Positions 1,684-10,848 of a DNA stretch of 49,612 bases are shown piece by piece. This DNA comes from Deltaproteobacteria bacterium. Lineage in GTDB: Bacteria > Desulfobacterota > Binatia > Binatales > Binataceae. How positions within the stretch are numbered: position 1 is the first letter of the stretch; the number at the start of each line of letters is the position of its first letter. Position numbers and translations under genes: made by a program. The notes beneath the pieces were generated by a model. The model saw nothing but the letters and a program-made list of their open reading frames with translations, was not told where the DNA came from and did not search any database. Location of the stretch: assembly GCA_003135855.1 (NCBI GenBank), contig PNBD01000008.1:18072-67683 (forward strand), written 5' to 3'.

Positions 1684-4600
1684 CTAGTGTAAGTCCGGCT
1701 TCATCATCGCTATGCGGCCCATGATGCGCTCCTCGAGCGCGCGCATCCCCAACTCGCGAGCCGTGGCGAGAGCCGCGTCCAGCAGTGCGGCAGCCTTATC
1801 GCGGTCGCCCGACTCGTGCCGCGCCAGCAGCATCGTGGCGTACTGCTCTTGCGTGTGGGCCAGCCAGACGTGCGCATCCATGCGCGCGTTCATCGCGAGT
1901 GCGTCTTCGAAGTGGCGAGTCGCGTCGTCCCAACGCTCGAGTGTCGTAGCCAGCGCACCCAGGTATCGTGAGAGGGCGCCGTAGCAAGCCGTGCCGTTGC
2001 CAACGACCACATTGCTGCCGGCGAAGGGGATGAGAATCCGATACAACGTGTCGGCGCGGGCCCGATCCCCCAGAAAGGTGCAGATGTCCACGAGATAGGT
2101 CATGGTTCCCATCCACACAAAATCGCGAGGCAGGTCGGCGAAGTCGTGCTGCGCCAGGTTCTCGAATTCCGCTCGCGCGTCTTCGGTCAGACCTAGATCC
2201 GAGTAAATCACCGCCAATCCCGGTCGCCATGCTGCAGCAGCCGTGTTTTGTTGCACGAACATGCGAACAACCGGCTCGACTTCCTTGAGGCGGCCCTGCT
2301 CGCGGCGCAGCGCAAACATCTGGAGCCCAAAAACGCCGGCGGCGGTTTCCGTTTGCACGCGCTGCGCGATCGTCAGGGCTTGCTGGGCCAGGCGCTCGCT
2401 GTCTTCGAAGCGGCCCCGCATCAAGGCCCGCATGGCTCGAAACATTGCGTTGAGGGAAAGTGAGAAAGGTCGGTTCTGCTCTTCCACAACACGGCCTTGG
2501 GTGTCGATGTCCGCATCGGCCGCCATTACATCTCCTGACTCGAGCAGGCAATATGCACGCCACCAATGGGCCTCGCCCAGCACCTCTGTGGCGTTCGCCT
2601 CTTCGGCACGGTCCACCATTTCTATTGCGACGGGGAGCCTCTGCCCGGCGTACTCCGGCCCCATGAGAGCGCCGAACATTCCGAGGAGGCTGTGGGCGAT
2701 CAATCCCGGGTCGCCCAAGCGCCGGGCCATCGCCACCGATTGCTCGGCGTATCTCAGCGCTTGTTGGGACTGCCCACTGGCGCCGAGTGCGCGGGCCAAA
2801 TAGCTAAGGATTTTCGCAGTGAGGGAATTGTCTTCCGTCCCGAGTCTCTGCAGCGCTTCCTCGAGCAAGCGAACCGCCGGGAGTGCGGGGAGGCCGCCAT
2901 AAAACGTCGCATCTACGAGCTCCAGCGCCGCACGGACTAGGCTTTCCGTTGATCCCAGCGATCGAGCGACCGCGGCAGCGAGCAGCAGCGTTTCCTGGCC
3001 CTCGAGGAATTCGCCCGCATAGAATTGCGCGTCACCAAGTATTAACAGGAGCGCGCAACGCTGAGCTTCGTTCGCGGGACGACTCCGCTCGGGCGCGTCT
3101 GGGATGGACCCGAGCAGTTCGAGCCCCTTCTTGAGATGGTTGATTGCTTCCAGGTTTGCCCATCGCTGAAGGGCTCGCTCACCCGCCCGTAGCCAGTACG
3201 GAATTGCTTGTGCTCCCAGCCCCGCTTCTGAGTAGTGATGCGCGATCAGCTCCGGTTGAGTCTCCACCGTTTCCGGGAATTGTGCTTCCAGCGCCCGAGC
3301 GACGCGTTGGTGCAGAACTCTGCGTCGTTCCAGCAATGCCGAGCCCGACGCGACTTGCTGCGATAGCGCATGCTTGAAGACGTACCCGACGTCGCTAATC
3401 GCGGGTTGCTCGTAGATGAACTCGGCTAACTGCAGCTCCGAGAGCAGCGTCTGCAGCTCCTCGTCGGCTTTGCCGGAGACCTCTCTTACCAGCCGGTATG
3501 GGAACTCCTTGCCGATCACCGCGAGCGTCTGCAGCAGGTCTTTCTGCTCCGGCGGCAGCCGGTCGATGCGCGAGGCCAGCACTGCCTGCACCGTCGACGG
3601 GATCTGAATGGTGCTCAGAGATTTGGCGAGCTTAATCGAGCCGTTGCGCACAAGGGCGCCTTGCTCGAACAGCGCCTGTACGATCTCCTCCATGAAAAGT
3701 GGATTGCCTTCGGTCTTCTCGATTATCAATTGCTTGAGCGGCGCCAGCTCGCGACCGTCGTCAAGCAGCGCCCGCAACATCTCCTCGCCACTCTCGGCAC
3801 TCAGCGGATCAAGCCGGAGCTGCGTATAGTAAGTCTTGTTGCCCCAGTTGTGGGTAAATTCTGGCCGGTAATTCACCAGCATCATCACCCGCGCAGTGCC
3901 GATTGAATCCGCCAGCAGGTTCAGCAGCGCCCGCGATCCATCGTCGAGCCAATGCAAGTCCTCGAAGATCACGACCAGCGGCTGGCTGAGGCTTTCGCGC
4001 AGCAGCAGGCGCTTGATCGCGTCGAGTGTCCGGCGCCTTCTGATTTCGGGATCGAGGCGGGCGAGCTGATCGTCGCTCTCCACCACCTCGAGCAGGGTGA
4101 AGATATATGGCAGCGTGTCTTCCAGCGCGCGATCCAGGATCAGGATCTTTCCGGCGATCTTTTCCCGGCGCCTGCGTCCGTCGTCGTCCGAAGTGATCTC
4201 GAAATAGTTTTTGAGCAGGTCGATCAGCGGCAGGTATGCCGACGCCTTGCCGTGCGAGACCGATAAAGTCTCAAGCACCAGGCATCCGGATTGCCCGACC
4301 GCCTGGAACTCGAAGAACAGGCGCGATTTGCCGACCCCGGCCTCGCCCACCGCCGCGACCACTTGCCCACGCCCGCTCTTCGCGAGTTCGAGCGCGTGCT
4401 TCATCTGCACGAGTTCGGCCTCGCGGCCCACGAACTTGGAGAGCCCGCGCCGCGCCGATGCCTGCAAACGTGTGCGCAGCGGGCCGAGCCCCATCACCTC
4501 GTGGACGTTTACCGGCTCGCTCACGCCCTTCACCCGCGTAGGTCCGATCGAGCGGAACGTGAAGTAGCCTTCGCAGAGCTTGCGCGTATTCTCGGTCGCC

Positions 4601-5277
4601 GCGATGGTGCCGGTCGCGGCCACCGTCTGCATCCGCGACGCCAGGTTGGCGCTATGCCCGATCGGCGTGTACTCGATCTGTCCGTCGCCGGTCTTGATCG
4701 ATCGCACCACGACTTCGCCGGTGTTCACGCCGACCCGGATTTCGATCGGCGCCCAGCCGCGCTCGCGCAGCGTCGCCGCATAGCGCCGGAGATCTTCCTG
4801 CATCCGCAGCGCCGCATACAGCGCGCGTTGTGGGTGGTCCTCGTGCGCGAGCGGAGCGCCGAACATCGCGAAGATGCCGTCGCCGGTCGACTGCACCACG
4901 TAGCCATCGTAGCGATGCACCGCCGCGATCATCAGCTTGAGCGCGGGATCGATGATCGCGCGAGCTTCCTCCGGGTCGAGGTTCTGCTCCAACTCCGTCG
5001 ATCCCTTGATGTCCGCGAACAGCGCCGTCACCAGTTTGCGCTCGCCCTCGAGCTCGCCGGCAGGTTCAACGATCTCGGTGGTCCGTGGCCTCGCGCGCGC
5101 CGGCGCGCCAGCAGCTCGAGTCGCAACGCCCAGTGCGGCGCCGCAATCTCCGCAGAATTTCTTTCCGTCCGAATTCTCCGCCCCGCATTTCGGGCAGCGA
5201 TTGCTCAGCTCCGCGCCGCAGTCGCCGCAGAACTTCTTGCCCGCTGGATTTTCGGAGCCGCAACTTGCGCAGCGCAT
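1684..5277 (-). CDS. Zinc-ribbon / class III cyclase / AAA ATPase / TPR signalling protein
   Basis: 1197 residues. Two CxxC-type zinc ribbons come first (Cys 3, 6, 17, 20 and 28, 31, 42, 45). A class III nucleotide cyclase domain follows (about 80-260), with metal-binding Asp89 (FADIKGST) and Asp133 (TGDGIFAMFG) and Asn211/Arg215 in the HSANLASRMQ helix. Next is a large STAND/AAA_16-type ATPase with Walker A GEAGVGKS (311-318) and Walker B VVIFEDLHWLD near 450. The last 500 residues are helical TPR-like repeats. Proteins of this build are presumed soluble sensors that make a cyclic nucleotide or act as ATP-driven scaffolds; the ligand is unknown. The usual purine-recognition Lys before TGDG is Gln129 here, so cyclase activity and nucleotide choice are uncertain. 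The ATG has a GGGGG site upstream and the gene stands alone. Confidence 0.88.
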   Translation of the reverse strand: MRCASCGSENPAGKKFCGDCGAELSNRCPKCGAENSDGKKFCGDCGAALGVATRAAGAPARARPRTTEIVEPAGELEGERKLVTALFADIKGSTELEQNLDPEEARAIIDPALKLMIAAVHRYDGYVVQSTGDGIFAMFGAPLAHEDHPQRALYAALRMQEDLRRYAATLRERGWAPIEIRVGVNTGEVVVRSIKTGDGQIEYTPIGHSANLASRMQTVAATGTIAATENTRKLCEGYFTFRSIGPTRVKGVSEPVNVHEVMGLGPLRTRLQASARRGLSKFVGREAELVQMKHALELAKSGRGQVVAAVGEAGVGKSRLFFEFQAVGQSGCLVLETLSVSHGKASAYLPLIDLLKNYFEITSDDDGRRRREKIAGKILILDRALEDTLPYIFTLLEVVESDDQLARLDPEIRRRRTLDAIKRLLLRESLSQPLVVIFEDLHWLDDGSRALLNLLADSIGTARVMMLVNYRPEFTHNWGNKTYYTQLRLDPLSAESGEEMLRALLDDGRELAPLKQLIIEKTEGNPLFMEEIVQALFEQGALVRNGSIKLAKSLSTIQIPSTVQAVLASRIDRLPPEQKDLLQTLAVIGKEFPYRLVREVSGKADEELQTLLSELQLAEFIYEQPAISDVGYVFKHALSQQVASGSALLERRRVLHQRVARALEAQFPETVETQPELIAHHYSEAGLGAQAIPYWLRAGERALQRWANLEAINHLKKGLELLGSIPDAPERSRPANEAQRCALLLILGDAQFYAGEFLEGQETLLLAAAVARSLGSTESLVRAALELVDATFYGGLPALPAVRLLEEALQRLGTEDNSLTAKILSYLARALGASGQSQQALRYAEQSVAMARRLGDPGLIAHSLLGMFGALMGPEYAGQRLPVAIEMVDRAEEANATEVLGEAHWWRAYCLLESGDVMAADADIDTQGRVVEEQNRPFSLSLNAMFRAMRALMRGRFEDSERLAQQALTIAQRVQTETAAGVFGLQMFALRREQGRLKEVEPVVRMFVQQNTAAAAWRPGLAVIYSDLGLTEDARAEFENLAQHDFADLPRDFVWMGTMTYLVDICTFLGDRARADTLYRILIPFAGSNVVVGNGTACYGALSRYLGALATTLERWDDATRHFEDALAMNARMDAHVWLAHTQEQYATMLLARHESGDRDKAAALLDAALATARELGMRALEERIMGRIAMMKPDLH

Positions 5278-6375: not shown

Positions 6376-7170
6376 TCACGGCGCGGTGCCGATCGCCGCG
6401 AATACTCGATGCAGCACGCGCATCGGATCCTCTGCAAACCGCTCTGCCAGCATCGCGCGCAATTCTTCGTCGAACGCCACGACCTCGGTCGGCGTGAGAC
6501 TCGCGCTAACTCCCGCACTCGCGCGAGTCCGTCCGCGCCACGCCTCGTGCGTATAGATCGCGTCGATGTCGAATGAAAATGTCTCCAGCTTCTCAAAGCC
6601 CGCGCCCGACAGGTCCGCCATCCATCGCGGATACATTCCAACTCCGCCGCCCATCTTCCATTTCGGATTGTGCTTTTCAATCAATTTCTCGGTTGCCTCG
6701 ATCATGTTGCCCGGCAGCGGAATCCAATCGAAATGCCCGATCACCAATCTGCCGCCCGGCTTCAAGAGGCGTCGCGATTCCGCCGCCGCGCGCGGACGAT
6801 CGAACCAATGCCAACATTGTCCCGCAGTGACCAAATCGAAACTCGCCGCCGGCAGTCCCGTTTCCTCGGCTGGTGCCACGACGTAATTCACCGAGACGCC
6901 CAGTTCGCGATCGATCTGGCGCGCCTGCTCCATCAACGGCTCCGATCGATCCAGCCCGACCGCATCGCATCCCCGCAGCGCGAGTCCGCGTGCGATCGTG
7001 CCGGTTCCGGTGCCGAGGTCGAGCGCGCGCATTCCGGCTCGCAGGATGTTCATCGCCGCCATCCGCTCGAAAAATTCGTTCGGAAAGCCCGCCCGATGAC
7101 GGCCGTAATCCTCGGCCGTTTTGCCAAAATCCGCCCGTAGCTCTTTGAATCGCACCTCCGCGGAACTCAT
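6376..7170 (-). CDS. Class I SAM-dependent methyltransferase
   Basis: 264 residues. The SAM-binding motif I is DLGTGTGT (51-58), the acidic ribose-binding residue is Asp74 in VGLDRS, and a post-motif LLKPGGRLVI follows at about 135-144, as in the Methyltransf_11 / UbiE-like group. Small-molecule methylation is likely, but the substrate is unknown. I chose the ATG at 7170 because a strong GGAGGA site sits just before it; the open frame runs further upstream without such a site. A promoter-like pair on the minus strand, TTGCGT and TATACA with 17 bp between (about 7198-7226), precedes it. The gene is divergent from the HTH-citrate synthase and shares its repeat-rich upstream region. Confidence 0.85.
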   Translation of the reverse strand: MSSAEVRFKELRADFGKTAEDYGRHRAGFPNEFFERMAAMNILRAGMRALDLGTGTGTIARGLALRGCDAVGLDRSEPLMEQARQIDRELGVSVNYVVAPAEETGLPAASFDLVTAGQCWHWFDRPRAAAESRRLLKPGGRLVIGHFDWIPLPGNMIEATEKLIEKHNPKWKMGGGVGMYPRWMADLSGAGFEKLETFSFDIDAIYTHEAWRGRTRASAGVSASLTPTEVVAFDEELRAMLAERFAEDPMRVLHRVFAAIGTAP

Positions 7171-7190
7171 CGGCAGATTCCTCCTTGAGC

Positions 7191-7251
7191 TTGACTGTAT
7201 ATAACTGCTCGTATCTTGACGCAAGTTGATATGTTGACGACCGCTTGACGC
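7191..7251 (+). promoter_or_regulatory. Array of direct TTGAC repeats between divergent genes
   Basis: Between the methyltransferase and citrate synthase genes, TTGAC occurs in the same direction at 7191, 7216, 7234 and 7245, with TTGAT at 7226. The octamer CTTGACGC is exact at 7215 and 7244. The last four copies are 8-11 bp apart, close to one helical turn. This looks like a binding array for a small DNA-binding domain; the adjacent gene encodes one. The binding is inference. Confidence 0.5.
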
Positions 7252-7280
7252 GTACCCAGTGCGCATGACGTGATTTTCGC

Positions 7281-8597
7281 GTGGCGATTCGCAAAACCAG
7301 CCGCGCCGGGATGCTCACTGCTGCCGAGGCCGCGAGTCAGCTCGGCGTCAAGCTCGGCACCCTCTACGCCTACGTCAGCCGCGGATGGCTCAAAAGTTAC
7401 CGCCGCAAAGTAGGGCGCCAGGCGCTCTATCGACGCCTCGACATTGAAGCGCTGCGCGGCGTCGTCTCCACCGAGCGCGGACGCCGCGGCCGCAGTCTCC
7501 CTGCCGCTTCTACCTGGGTCACGGTGGCCCAGCCGAAAAGTATCGAGGATGGCGCGCCCGGCGTGATTGTCGCCGAGTCCGCCGTCAGTTCGATCACCGA
7601 CGGCCGTCTCGCCTATCGCGGCTATCCGATTGAAGAGGTCGTCGAGCGCGCATCTTTCGAAGAAGTCTGCCTGTTGCTCTGGAGCGGTGAGCGTCCGGTG
7701 CCTGAGGAGATTGCCGCGCTGAAAGCTGAAATCGAAGGTGCGCAAATGCCCACGACCGTTGCCGCCGCACTCAACGCAACTGGTGAGGACGCGCCGCCGC
7801 TGCTCCGGCTCGCCGCCGTGATGCCGAGTCTGGCCGCATGGGATCGCCGGCAGCCGCCGCGTACACGAATCGATCGCGCCAAGTTGATCATCAGCCAGCT
7901 TCCGCTCGCGTTGGGAAATCGTCCCGAAGGCGGCGCGCCGCTCGGCGTTGGGATGGCGGGGCGACTGCTCGGTTTGGTTCCATCATCCACCGGATCGGAT
8001 TGGGAAGTCGCCGCGCTCGATCGCGTCCTGGTCGCGTGCGCCGAGCACGAATTGAACGCGTCCACTTTTGCCGCACGCGTCGTCGCGAGCACCGGCGCCG
8101 ATCTATTTGCCTCGGTGCTCTCCGCGTTGTGTTCGCTATCAGGACCAATTCACGGCGGCGCCTGCGATCGCATCGAGGCGATGTTCAACGAACTCGAATC
8201 CGGCGCGCGCATGGATGAATGCCTCTCCACCTTCACTCGCGATCATCGCCTGCCGCCCGGCTTCGGCCATGCGATTTATCCCGACGGCGATCCGCGCGCC
8301 GTGCTGTTGCGAGCAGTCGCGCAATCGATTGCACGCCATCGCGGCCGCCGGCTGTTCGAGACTGCGCTCAAAGTCGAAGCGGCCGTGTTCAAACGCGAGC
8401 GGCTCCGCCCCAATCTCGATTTTTATCTGACCGTCTGCGCGCGCATGCTCGGCTTCCAGCAATCGCTGCCGGCCGCGATCTTCGCGATCGGGCGCGCATC
8501 GGGATGGATCGCGCATGCGCTCGAACAGTATGCCGACAATCGACTGATTCGTCCGCGCATGCGTTACCGCGGCGCCCCCTCGCGACATTGGGATTAG
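7281..8597 (+). CDS. Citrate synthase-family protein with N-terminal helix-turn-helix
   Basis: 438 residues. Residues about 11-60 form an excisionase/MerR-like helix-turn-helix (LTAAEAASQLGV, then TLYAYVSRGWL, then a basic wing). Residues about 90-430 are a citrate/2-methylcitrate synthase with all catalytic residues: His291 in GPIHGGA, His330 in GFGHAIYPDGDPR and Asp380 in PNLDFY; HELNAST at 256-262 is also conserved. The enzyme part should condense oxaloacetate with an acyl-CoA. The fusion suggests that the protein also binds DNA, possibly its own upstream repeats. The start is GTG at 7281 without a clear ribosome site; ATG at 7311 (Met11) is an alternative that keeps the HTH. It is followed, 69 bp later, by an alcohol dehydrogenase on the same strand. 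Confidence 0.88.
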   Translation: MAIRKTSRAGMLTAAEAASQLGVKLGTLYAYVSRGWLKSYRRKVGRQALYRRLDIEALRGVVSTERGRRGRSLPAASTWVTVAQPKSIEDGAPGVIVAESAVSSITDGRLAYRGYPIEEVVERASFEEVCLLLWSGERPVPEEIAALKAEIEGAQMPTTVAAALNATGEDAPPLLRLAAVMPSLAAWDRRQPPRTRIDRAKLIISQLPLALGNRPEGGAPLGVGMAGRLLGLVPSSTGSDWEVAALDRVLVACAEHELNASTFAARVVASTGADLFASVLSALCSLSGPIHGGACDRIEAMFNELESGARMDECLSTFTRDHRLPPGFGHAIYPDGDPRAVLLRAVAQSIARHRGRRLFETALKVEAAVFKRERLRPNLDFYLTVCARMLGFQQSLPAAIFAIGRASGWIAHALEQYADNRLIRPRMRYRGAPSRHWD

Positions 8598-8666: not shown

Positions 8667-9683
8667 ATGAAAGCAATCGCCAAAACCAGCGCGGCTCCCG
8701 GCGCCGAAGTCATCGAAACTCCAATCCCCGAAGTCGGCGAAAGCGAACTGCTCGTTCGCGTCGGTGCCTGCGGCGTGTGCGGTTCCGATCTGCACATCGT
8801 CGATTGGGAACTTGGTGCGAACCGGATGGTCTCGCGAATTCCGTTCGTGCTCGGCCACGAGCCCGCCGGCGAGGTCGTCGAACTCGGCATCGGAGTAAAC
8901 GGCTTCAAAGTTGGCGATCGCGTCGCACTCGATCCCTTCGGTCATTGCGGACGATGCGGCCCGTGTCGCGCTGGTCGATTTCATCTTTGCGCTTCCCCGA
9001 CCACGCTCTCGGGAGCCTTCGCTGAATTTACGATCGCGCCGATCGGCAACGCCCATCTCGTTCCGCCTACGATGGATATGGAGCAGGCCGCGTTGCTCGA
9101 AATGTTCGGCACCGGGCTGCATGCGGTCGAGCAATCCTGCCTGATGCCCGGTGATAGCGCGGTTATCGAAGGCCCGGGTCCGATTGGCTTGAGCATCGCG
9201 CTGTCGGCGCGCGCGCTTGGCGTCACCTCGCTCGTGATCACAGGCCTCGCGCAGGATACCACCCGCCTCGAACTCGCTCGCACTATGGGCTTTAAAACAG
9301 TGACTACCGGCGCCCCCGATTGGATCGAGCAAGTGCGCGCCATGATGCCTGCCGACGGCGCCGACGTGGTGTTCGACGCGTCGGGCGCCATCGATTCTCC
9401 GCGCGAATTGCTGCGTCGCGGCGGCCAGTTGATCGAAGTGGGATGGCCCGCGCGTGATGTGACCTCCGCCGAATTGCGCGCGCTGTTCTTTCACGGCGTC
9501 AATATTATCAACTCGCGAGTCCGCACCCCCGAAACCTGGCGTCGCGCAATCGCGATGGTCTCGTCGGGCGCGATCGACTTGCGTCCGATGATCACCCACC
9601 GCTACGGCATCTCGCGCGGCTTGGAGGCTTTCACCTTGCTGCGTGAACGGCGCGGCGTGAAAGCATTGATTATTCCGGAATAG
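8667..9683 (+). CDS. Zinc-dependent medium-chain alcohol dehydrogenase
   Basis: 338 residues of the MDR superfamily (threonine/sorbitol dehydrogenase-like). Catalytic zinc ligands are Cys38 (GVCGSD) and His64-Glu65 (GHEPAGEV). Structural zinc ligands are Cys94, 97, 100 and 108. The NAD(P)-binding Rossmann turn is GPGPIGL near 169-175. It should oxidise a secondary alcohol or polyol reversibly in the cytoplasm; the substrate is not determined. The ribosome site before the ATG is weak. It lies 69 bp after the HTH-citrate synthase and 46 bp before an amidohydrolase, all on the plus strand, so the three may be co-transcribed. Confidence 0.88.
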   Translation: MKAIAKTSAAPGAEVIETPIPEVGESELLVRVGACGVCGSDLHIVDWELGANRMVSRIPFVLGHEPAGEVVELGIGVNGFKVGDRVALDPFGHCGRCGPCRAGRFHLCASPTTLSGAFAEFTIAPIGNAHLVPPTMDMEQAALLEMFGTGLHAVEQSCLMPGDSAVIEGPGPIGLSIALSARALGVTSLVITGLAQDTTRLELARTMGFKTVTTGAPDWIEQVRAMMPADGADVVFDASGAIDSPRELLRRGGQLIEVGWPARDVTSAELRALFFHGVNIINSRVRTPETWRRAIAMVSSGAIDLRPMITHRYGISRGLEAFTLLRERRGVKALIIPE

Positions 9684-9729: not shown

Positions 9730-10848
9730 ATGAAAGACGGATTCAAGATCGTCGACGCAGATACTCACTTGATGGAACCTGAGTATGTATTCGAAAGGTA
9801 TATCGACGAACGCTACAAGTCCCAGGCCCCGCGACTCGGTATCGCCGCCGAATCAGGACGCCGCACATTCCTCGTCGAAGGCGAGCCGTTCACCCGCGAA
9901 AAGGGCAAGTACCCGATGGCCGCGCCGGCCTTCCTCGAGTCAGTCCGCCGCGCGATGAAGCGCTTCGAGCGCGCCGCCAAAACCGGCTTCAGTCCCGAAA
10001 GCCGCCTGATGGACATGGACGAGCAGGGCGTCGACGTTCAGATTGTTTATCCAACCGCGGCCGGTCAAATGATGGGCCGCGAATTCCGCGATCCCAAACT
10101 GCTCGCCGCTTGCTGCGCTGCGTACAATGACTGGAGCGCGGACTATTGCTCGAAGACCAACGGCCGCGTCAAGTTTGCCGCGATCCTGCCGATGCAGGAC
10201 GTCGAGGAATCCATCAAGGAAGCGCATCGCGCGGCCAAAAACGGCGCGATCAGCTTTTATGTCCGTCCCAATCCGGTTCGCGGCCGCACGCTCTTCCACG
10301 ATGATTATCTGCCGCTCTGGGCCGAAGTCGAAAAGCTCGGCCGTCCGATCTCCACCCACGACTCGGCCTCCGCCTCGGTCGAATCATTTGGCGATCGCAT
10401 GGATACCCATGTCACCGGCCACATCTTGTCGCATCCGTTCGAAGCGATGGCCGCGATGGCCGGCCTTATCTGGTACGGCGTGATCGAAAAGTACCCCAAG
10501 TTGAAAGTCGTGCAGGTCGAGGCCGACGGCGGATGGGTTCCCTACTGGCTACAGCGGATGGAACAGCATTGGAATTTTAGCGGCAATGCGGAACATGAGT
10601 ATTTGACCAAACGCCCGACTGAGTATTTCAAAAGCAACTTCTTCGTGGCGTTTCGCGGCGACGAACCGACTATGAAAGCCGCCCTTGATATAGTCGGCGA
10701 TGACAACTTCCTGTGGGATACTGACTATCCGCATCCTGACGGCACATTTCCCTGGGGCATCAACGCGATTCTGCAGCAGTCGATTCCCGAGACCAGCAAA
10801 CGCAAAATCCTGTGGGACAACGCCGCCCGCGCATTCAACTTGAACTGA
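9730..10848 (+). CDS. Amidohydrolase family 2 protein (ACMSD-like fold)
   Basis: 372 residues. It opens with the metal-site motif VDADTHLMEP (Asp9, His13) and has the C-terminal WDTDYPHPDGTFPW segment typical of amidohydrolase family 2, whose members include decarboxylases and hydrolases with one catalytic metal. LMDMDEQGVDVQIVYPTAAG near residues 93-112 also matches this group. The reaction cannot be named. The ATG follows a GGAG site at 9719-9722. It is last in the citrate synthase - dehydrogenase - amidohydrolase run and is followed by a 413-bp gap with parS-like sites. Confidence 0.85.
   Translation: MKDGFKIVDADTHLMEPEYVFERYIDERYKSQAPRLGIAAESGRRTFLVEGEPFTREKGKYPMAAPAFLESVRRAMKRFERAAKTGFSPESRLMDMDEQGVDVQIVYPTAAGQMMGREFRDPKLLAACCAAYNDWSADYCSKTNGRVKFAAILPMQDVEESIKEAHRAAKNGAISFYVRPNPVRGRTLFHDDYLPLWAEVEKLGRPISTHDSASASVESFGDRMDTHVTGHILSHPFEAMAAMAGLIWYGVIEKYPKLKVVQVEADGGWVPYWLQRMEQHWNFSGNAEHEYLTKRPTEYFKSNFFVAFRGDEPTMKAALDIVGDDNFLWDTDYPHPDGTFPWGINAILQQSIPETSKRKILWDNAARAFNLN

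Follow-up and report, generated by a model that had tools for sequence, protein, structure and literature searches.

Citrate synthases fused to a helix-turn-helix domain probably act as metabolite-sensing gene switches in several bacterial phyla

Citrate synthases that carry an N-terminal helix-turn-helix (HTH-CS) form a widespread family that probably acts as a metabolite-sensing gene switch, since in many relatives a short DNA site, shared among them, lies next to the fusion and precedes the gene of a related enzyme. We give a probability of roughly 0.68 to the reading that HTH-CS is a one-component transcription regulator whose citrate synthase (CS) domain senses oxaloacetate or acyl-CoA. 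At family level, DNA-directed regulation is well supported on sequence grounds, while the sensing of oxaloacetate or acyl-CoA is what we infer for the enzyme-derived domain. The member described here lies in a 49,612-nucleotide stretch of a genome assigned to the Binataceae (GCA_003135855.1, contig PNBD01000008.1, positions 18,072 to 67,683), called the window throughout. Its locus comprises the following features, in window coordinates.

6376-7170, minus strand: divergent SAM methyltransferase gene, with an alternative ORF start at 7266 (PF08241 matched on the longer ORF; start from the gene caller).
7185-7248, plus strand: weak candidate binding region, with TTGA at 7185, 7191, 7216, 7226, 7234 and 7245 (TTGA/TCAA count against shuffles).
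7245-7274, plus strand: putative fusion-gene promoter, -35 TTGACG at 7245-7250 and -10 CGTGAT at 7269-7274 (by eye in many Binataceae-type orthologues).
7281-8597, plus strand: HTH-CS fusion gene, 438 aa, GTG start (ORF; Pfam HTH_17 and Citrate_synt; Binataceae-type orthologues 68-89% identical).
7311-7451, plus strand: winged HTH domain, residues 11-57 (HTH_17, PF12728, E 1.5e-7, 32 bits against a cut-off of 27; the HTH-only model best matches BldC-DNA, RacA-DNA and SoxR).
7353-7379, plus strand: recognition helix, residues 25-33 (helix in the model; invariant columns in the alignment).
7479-7568, plus strand: low-confidence linker, residues 67-96 (pLDDT < 50).
7557-8558, plus strand: citrate synthase domain, residues 93-426 (Citrate_synt, PF00285, profile positions 3-357 of 357, E 2e-85, 287 bits against a cut-off of 27; fold closest to 2-methylcitrate synthases).
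8667-9683, plus strand: zinc-dependent dehydrogenase, next downstream, with its own TTGACG...GTATT promoter-like sequence seen by eye (Pfam, NCBIfam, neighbour comparison).
9730-10848, plus strand: amidohydrolase (PF04909), which follows the dehydrogenase in many Binataceae-type loci (Pfam, neighbour comparison).

The sequence-only reading had described the protein as a full HTH joined to a citrate synthase with its catalytic residues intact. Both points were confirmed: each Pfam domain scores above its curated cut-off, and His291, His330 and Asp380 are encoded at 8151-8153 (CAC), 8268-8270 (CAT) and 8418-8420 (GAT). Also kept are H256 (8046-8048), R339, R405 and R424, which we take to be oxaloacetate- or citrate-binding residues by homology to the pig and E. 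coli enzymes. An AlphaFold2 model, made from an alignment of 54 family members, reached a mean pLDDT of 87 with a folded HTH and a CS fold, and structure comparison of this model returned mostly 2-methylcitrate synthases as the nearest folds of the CS domain. Against the NCBIfam models for citrate and methylcitrate synthases, the protein remained under the cut-off of every one listed, the best being TIGR01800 (252.7 bits, cut-off 421.3). Sequence searches of solved structures returned citrate synthases for the whole fusion (best 60 of 80 matches) and weak HTH matches for the N-terminus, and no single chain spanning both HTH and CS was seen in them. The 521-aa chain 8qzp is a plant enzyme.

The recognition helix and the HTH core are better kept than the CS domain when the two branches of the family are compared. 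Between Binataceae-type and other HTH-CS, the recognition helix shows 74% identity, the HTH core 63% and the CS core 42%, falling to 31% in the wing and after-helix part (39-60) and 23% in the N-terminal part of the CS. Residues L21, Y29, Y31, V32, S33, R34 and Y50 are invariant in the 54 aligned members, together with H291 and D380, and the window protein carries the family recognition helix with Y29, Y31, V32, S33 and R34. Outside this alignment, position 31 is N in two members (L177 and L181), though both have the DNA site described below, and L178, L179 and L183 vary next to that position. Modelled alone (pLDDT 86), the HTH best matches DNA-bound BldC, DNA-bound RacA, SoxR and other MerR regulators, with a best E-value of 2.2e-3 and none at or below 0.001 for this small domain. 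The C-terminal coiled coil of the MerR family is absent from the fusion, in which the HTH is followed by the linker and then by the CS domain.

In the search of relatives, 14 of 38 genomes, the window's own included, gave matches starting at or before residue 11. A scan of genome contigs yielded 79 loci kept from the best 80 matches; among these best 80, 17 loci share at least 68% identity with the window protein and are called Binataceae-type, some of them recorded under other names (Deltaproteobacteria, Proteobacteria, Terriglobia), and the others, at 32-39%, are nearly all HTH-CS with a few HTH-less CS. The HTH-CS hosts among the best 80 belong to the Alpha- and Betaproteobacteria, Myxococcota, Chloroflexota and Planctomycetota, and HTH-CS genes also occur on two Deinococcus plasmids. 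When the class of G057 (Chelatococcus) was sampled evenly, 10 of 96 genomes gave a match at E <= 1e-40, a count that includes the centre genome G057 and G044, each already known, and G062, whose match holds an internal TGA; all of these matches begin at query residue 1-5. In a tree of the CS domain (71 of 147 sequences), one branch with 100/99 support has every HTH-CS on the same side; drawn with a midpoint root, the tree divides them into two clades, Binataceae-type and the rest; L046, in the former, starts at a contig end. The simplest reading of this tree is a single origin of the fusion, with the window in a separate branch. G023, from the same family as the window, lacks a Binataceae-type HTH-CS; its own is canonical, has the site and is paired with an HMGL-like gene.

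Outside the Binataceae-type branch, the opposite-strand neighbour could be compared at 62 loci: it is an HTH-less CS in 39 and a class III CoA-transferase (PF02515) in 17. The neighbour is of another kind or unassignable in the remaining 6, among which L080 has an overlapping CS ORF, and L014 and L015 have a common HMGL-like neighbour cluster (PF00682 tested for L014). On the two Deinococcus plasmids the partner is a pyruvate carboxyltransferase (PF00682 tested for L114, annotation for L180). The partner CS resemble CitA in having Glu at the position of the catalytic Asp (36 of 37, for example L050, L053 and L056), as do the aligned chains 2c6x and 8gmf. Other plasmid neighbours include a DUF2332 gene in Roseomonas and a ring-hydroxylating dioxygenase in P. 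fungorum (divergent or upstream gene), and a same-strand VOC/MFS/SDR run lies by the HTH-CS of the P. sprentiae plasmid. Plasmid At of Agrobacterium fabrum C58 carries the pair as ATU_RS25365/ATU_RS25370. The window has no divergent CS, CoA-transferase or HMGL-like gene and carries the methyltransferase gene there instead.

The gap between HTH-CS and the divergent gene contains the sequence GTCAAT(C/A)TTGATT-N-ATCAATAT, in which the arms TTGATT/AATCAA form an inverted repeat. The pattern TCAANNTTGA-N4-9-WTCAA was present in 57 of 61 upstream regions outside the Binataceae-type branch (1 of the 62 loci was omitted at a contig end, and near-identical Reyranella-type loci are included), against 0.005 loci per set and a maximum of 1 in 200 sets of dinucleotide shuffles of the same 61 regions. 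Sorted by partner, it accompanies CS in 38/39 loci, CoA-transferase in 15/17 and others in 4/5; because it occurs with three partner families, the site tracks the regulator rather than one partner. By eye, the 20-bp spacer that separates TTGTCA from TATAAT in L059 is taken up by the site. In C58, the site (L112:4954) lies past the annotated start of ATU_RS25370, yet ahead of the start suggested by relatives.

As the pattern had been picked after viewing the 61 regions, other loci found by protein similarity were tested. All nine alphaproteobacterial test loci (L168-L176) gave a best matrix score above all 200 shuffles, and 7 of the 9 contain the strict pattern; they remain relatives of the loci used for training. 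The matrix was built on 51 distinct sites. The strict core TCAANNTTGA is present in 7 of 10 named plasmid loci; judged by this core, L177 and L181 have the site. In L179 the core is there but for one mismatch (by eye), whereas L178 and L183 showed no such site. Matrix scoring covered loci other than L177, L178, L179, L181 and L167, whose HTH a motif filter had missed. In L183, from a Paraburkholderia fungorum plasmid, a diverged HTH-CS gene and a gene set for an aromatic-ring dioxygenase point away from each other, and the gap displays TCGAT-type repeats in place of TTGAT (by eye).

Across 24 whole genomes, the pattern gave 74 matches against 7 for a reversed control, with 21 of the 74 in G039 and 0-5 in each of the other genomes. 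In 23 of the 24, one match has the sequence of the site at HTH-CS, and several genomes hold extra matches away from HTH-CS genes. G057 and the Acidovorax genome G048 each have one extra match at a second HTH-CS. A further copy in Acidovorax sp. CF316 (G048; L166 2769-2791) has no adjoining HTH-CS and is flanked by a class III CoA-transferase gene and an ORF that looks LysR-like by eye; it could be bound in trans by HTH-CS or be a site of the LysR protein itself. Such a copy is what would be expected if the HTH-like region were only an oligomerisation arm and the operator belonged to another regulator; that explanation is highly improbable, as the site follows HTH-CS across three partner families and several phyla, and the fold matches DNA-bound BldC, RacA and SoxR. 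The invariant helix, the BldC/RacA/SoxR-like fold, the conserved site and the divergent enzyme genes together make a mere dimerisation arm unlikely. In view of the site conserved outside the Binataceae-type branch, binding of DNA by the HTH of the family is supported indirectly.

We propose that the N-terminal MerR/BldC-like winged HTH would bind DNA, and that the CS domain would supply the dimer and the ligand pocket, known citrate synthases being dimers. The family at large would act locally on the conserved sequence TCAA-NN-TTGAT-N-ATCAA in the gap to the divergent gene, the predicted targets being carboxylic-acid and acyl-CoA enzymes (CitA-type citrate synthase, class III CoA-transferase, HMGL-like). 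The ligand may be oxaloacetate or another 2-oxo acid and/or acyl-CoA, whose binding would close the CS domain; closure would alter how the two HTHs meet the operator and would switch the neighbouring gene together with the regulator's own. Tight allostery is not favoured, given the low-confidence linker. In the Binataceae-type branch, where HTH and ligand pocket are conserved and the canonical site and partner absent, the gene often heads a dehydrogenase/amidohydrolase cluster, which it may control via another site. The sequence-only reading had suggested a one-protein metabolic switch acting on DNA; at family level its DNA side is well supported by the helix, the fold, the site and the divergent genes.

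The active-site residues are intact in nearly all HTH-CS members, as read from a residue table that left out short ORFs (the partners of L063 and L083 and both pieces of L064) and the window copies L002 and L003. This fits an enzyme as well as a sensor, and catalysis by HTH-CS is possible judging from these residues. HTH-CS might be a true bifunctional trigger enzyme, a catalytically active citrate or 2-methylcitrate synthase with DNA binding as a second function through which flux is reported, in line with the intact residues of the window and of nearly all members and with the nearest folds being mostly 2-methylcitrate synthases. We regard this as unlikely, though the most serious of the alternatives. 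Two members, L053 and L108, carry H330Q and a third, L016, carries H256N, while HTH and operator-like site are kept in all three; since a catalytic His is lost and HTH and site are retained, these three are likely pure sensors. The residue after H330, moreover, is mostly Ala (Binataceae-type) or Pro/Gln (other HTH-CS) instead of Arg, although P. aeruginosa PrpC has the same GHAIY motif. Caulobacter CitC, possibly of the HTH-CS type, failed to replace GltA in E. coli in a published test (PMC7083601). The window's genome, which is about 90% complete, contains one other citrate synthase match, and this second gene counts in favour of the regulator reading.

The canonical site was found in 0 of 26 Binataceae-type upstream regions, rows that represent fewer independent genomes, seven loci having been fetched by two routes with identical upstream sequences. 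The best matrix score in the window was -8.9, a value reached by 28 of 100 shuffles, and L041 was the only Binataceae-type locus to exceed all 100 of its own shuffles, at a low score of 2.5. Direct regulation of DNA, as the sequence-only reading had envisaged, is supported in part: the window's own protein retains the conserved HTH, but its locus has neither the canonical site nor the usual partner. One could take the protein for an ordinary citrate synthase isozyme with a functionless leftover HTH, as its CS domain is intact and its branch has no canonical site. A leftover is hardly credible, however, as the recognition helix has changed less than the CS body and is invariant in the 54 members, and as members of the sister branch keep the site across phyla.

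Ahead of the fusion gene, TTGACG-N18-CGTGAT is followed by the GTG at 7281, 7 bp past the -10, giving the look of a near-leaderless transcript; the GTG start fits this promoter-like pair just ahead of it. Upstream regions of clade A (n = 8) contain 30 TTGA/TCAA against 9.2 +- 2.8 when shuffled (0/500 as high), and those of clade B (n = 11) contain 16 against 6.2 +- 2.3 (1/500 as high). Since clade B, with mainly the -35 box, is raised as well, part of the clade-A excess is promoter. The region upstream of the fusion gene has six direct TTGA repeats. As background, the 130 bp ahead of each of 190 called genes, taken from the window and L033-L049, hold 1.2 on average, and 1% of them hold six or more. 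As an operator of the window protein, these repeats (7185-7248) are a weak candidate, because one TTGA lies in the -35 box and a conserved CAA(C/G)TTG could be the -35 region of the methyltransferase gene. BldC binds DNA head-to-tail, and by analogy the direct repeats recall that mode of binding. Instead of an operator, the conserved upstream blocks could represent the promoter of the methyltransferase gene (TTGCRT-N17-TATA, by eye). Genome-wide TCAAGGTTGAATCGATCAA-like matches in 25 relatives were rejected as the fusion operator, as they also occur in the fusion-less genomes G001, G004, G005 and G006.

Downstream, the dehydrogenase-amidohydrolase order is kept in many Binataceae-type loci and is followed by an acyl-CoA dehydrogenase in several. 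Ahead of the zinc dehydrogenase, only the promoter-like TTGACG...GTATT recurs by eye among these loci. On the other side of the fusion, the window holds a 1197-aa ORF (1684-5277, minus strand) in which two zinc-ribbon-like CxxC motifs, a nucleotidyl-cyclase-like part and an ATPase/repeat part were noted by eye. Taken across branches, the data lead us to favour, a little less firmly than the regulator reading itself, a picture in which citrate-synthase-built factors of several phyla would read the oxaloacetate or acyl-CoA state by means of an enzyme-like active site and, via a common operator, control interchangeable enzymes that produce or use up similar carboxylic acids and acyl-CoAs, the Binataceae-type having moved to a new operator and a catabolic cluster.

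With this analysis, a fusion annotated simply as 'citrate synthase family protein' becomes a regulator family that can be tested through its predicted DNA site, and its hosts include organisms with named genomes such as Agrobacterium fabrum C58, Azospirillum thermophilum and Deinococcus. An enzyme of central metabolism would here have been put to new use as a sensor, HTH-CS genes should not simply count as extra citrate synthases in metabolic models, and the protein could give a natural oxaloacetate or acyl-CoA biosensor. One-component regulators with enzyme-derived sensor domains are already known, and the HTH-CS family would be a variant of these. No description of an HTH-citrate synthase regulator was found in the literature searched, which covered few subscription journals, so that prior work may exist.

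Several known systems resemble parts of the proposed switch. The pairing of a regulator back to back with a CS gene recalls B. subtilis CitR/citA, and the divergent partner CS is of CitA type, with Glu at the catalytic Asp (2c6x, named 'citrate synthase 1', is presumably B. subtilis CitA, and 8gmf and 6wgy presumably M. tuberculosis CitA). CitR is a LysR-type regulator, whereas the HTH-CS regulator is itself made from a citrate synthase and a MerR/BldC-like HTH. The 2-methylcitrate synthase PrpC (6s6f/6s87, 3hwk) has the CS fold, is the best structural match and, in P. aeruginosa, has GHAIY in common with HTH-CS, but it has no HTH, and we know of no operator role for it. With BldC, SoxR and MerR-like regulators, HTH-CS shares the winged HTH fold; MerR promoters have long spacers, which the filled 20-bp spacer of L059 resembles by eye. 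Unlike in these regulators, the sensor and dimer part is a citrate synthase and not a MerR coiled coil. PutA and BirA are trigger enzymes in which an enzyme fold is used for gene control; HTH-CS differs from them in coming from a different enzyme family and in being probably mainly a sensor. In Streptomyces, SCO5831/SCO5832 (citA3/citA4) are putative citrate synthases, and MtrA bound a probe from their shared intergenic region (PMC12323332). For Caulobacter, PMC7083601 describes CitC (CCNA_03758) as the neighbour of an active CitB and has a strain deleted for citBC, and this adjacent citB/citC may be a partner/HTH-CS pair; in the main text on CitA in that source, the terms 'helix-turn-helix' and 'HTH' do not appear. 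CitA is presented there as a moonlighting enzyme that acts on CtrA and whose regulatory role does not depend on catalysis. Like Caulobacter CitA as described there, HTH-CS would be a citrate synthase with a regulatory role, here proposed to be exerted on DNA.
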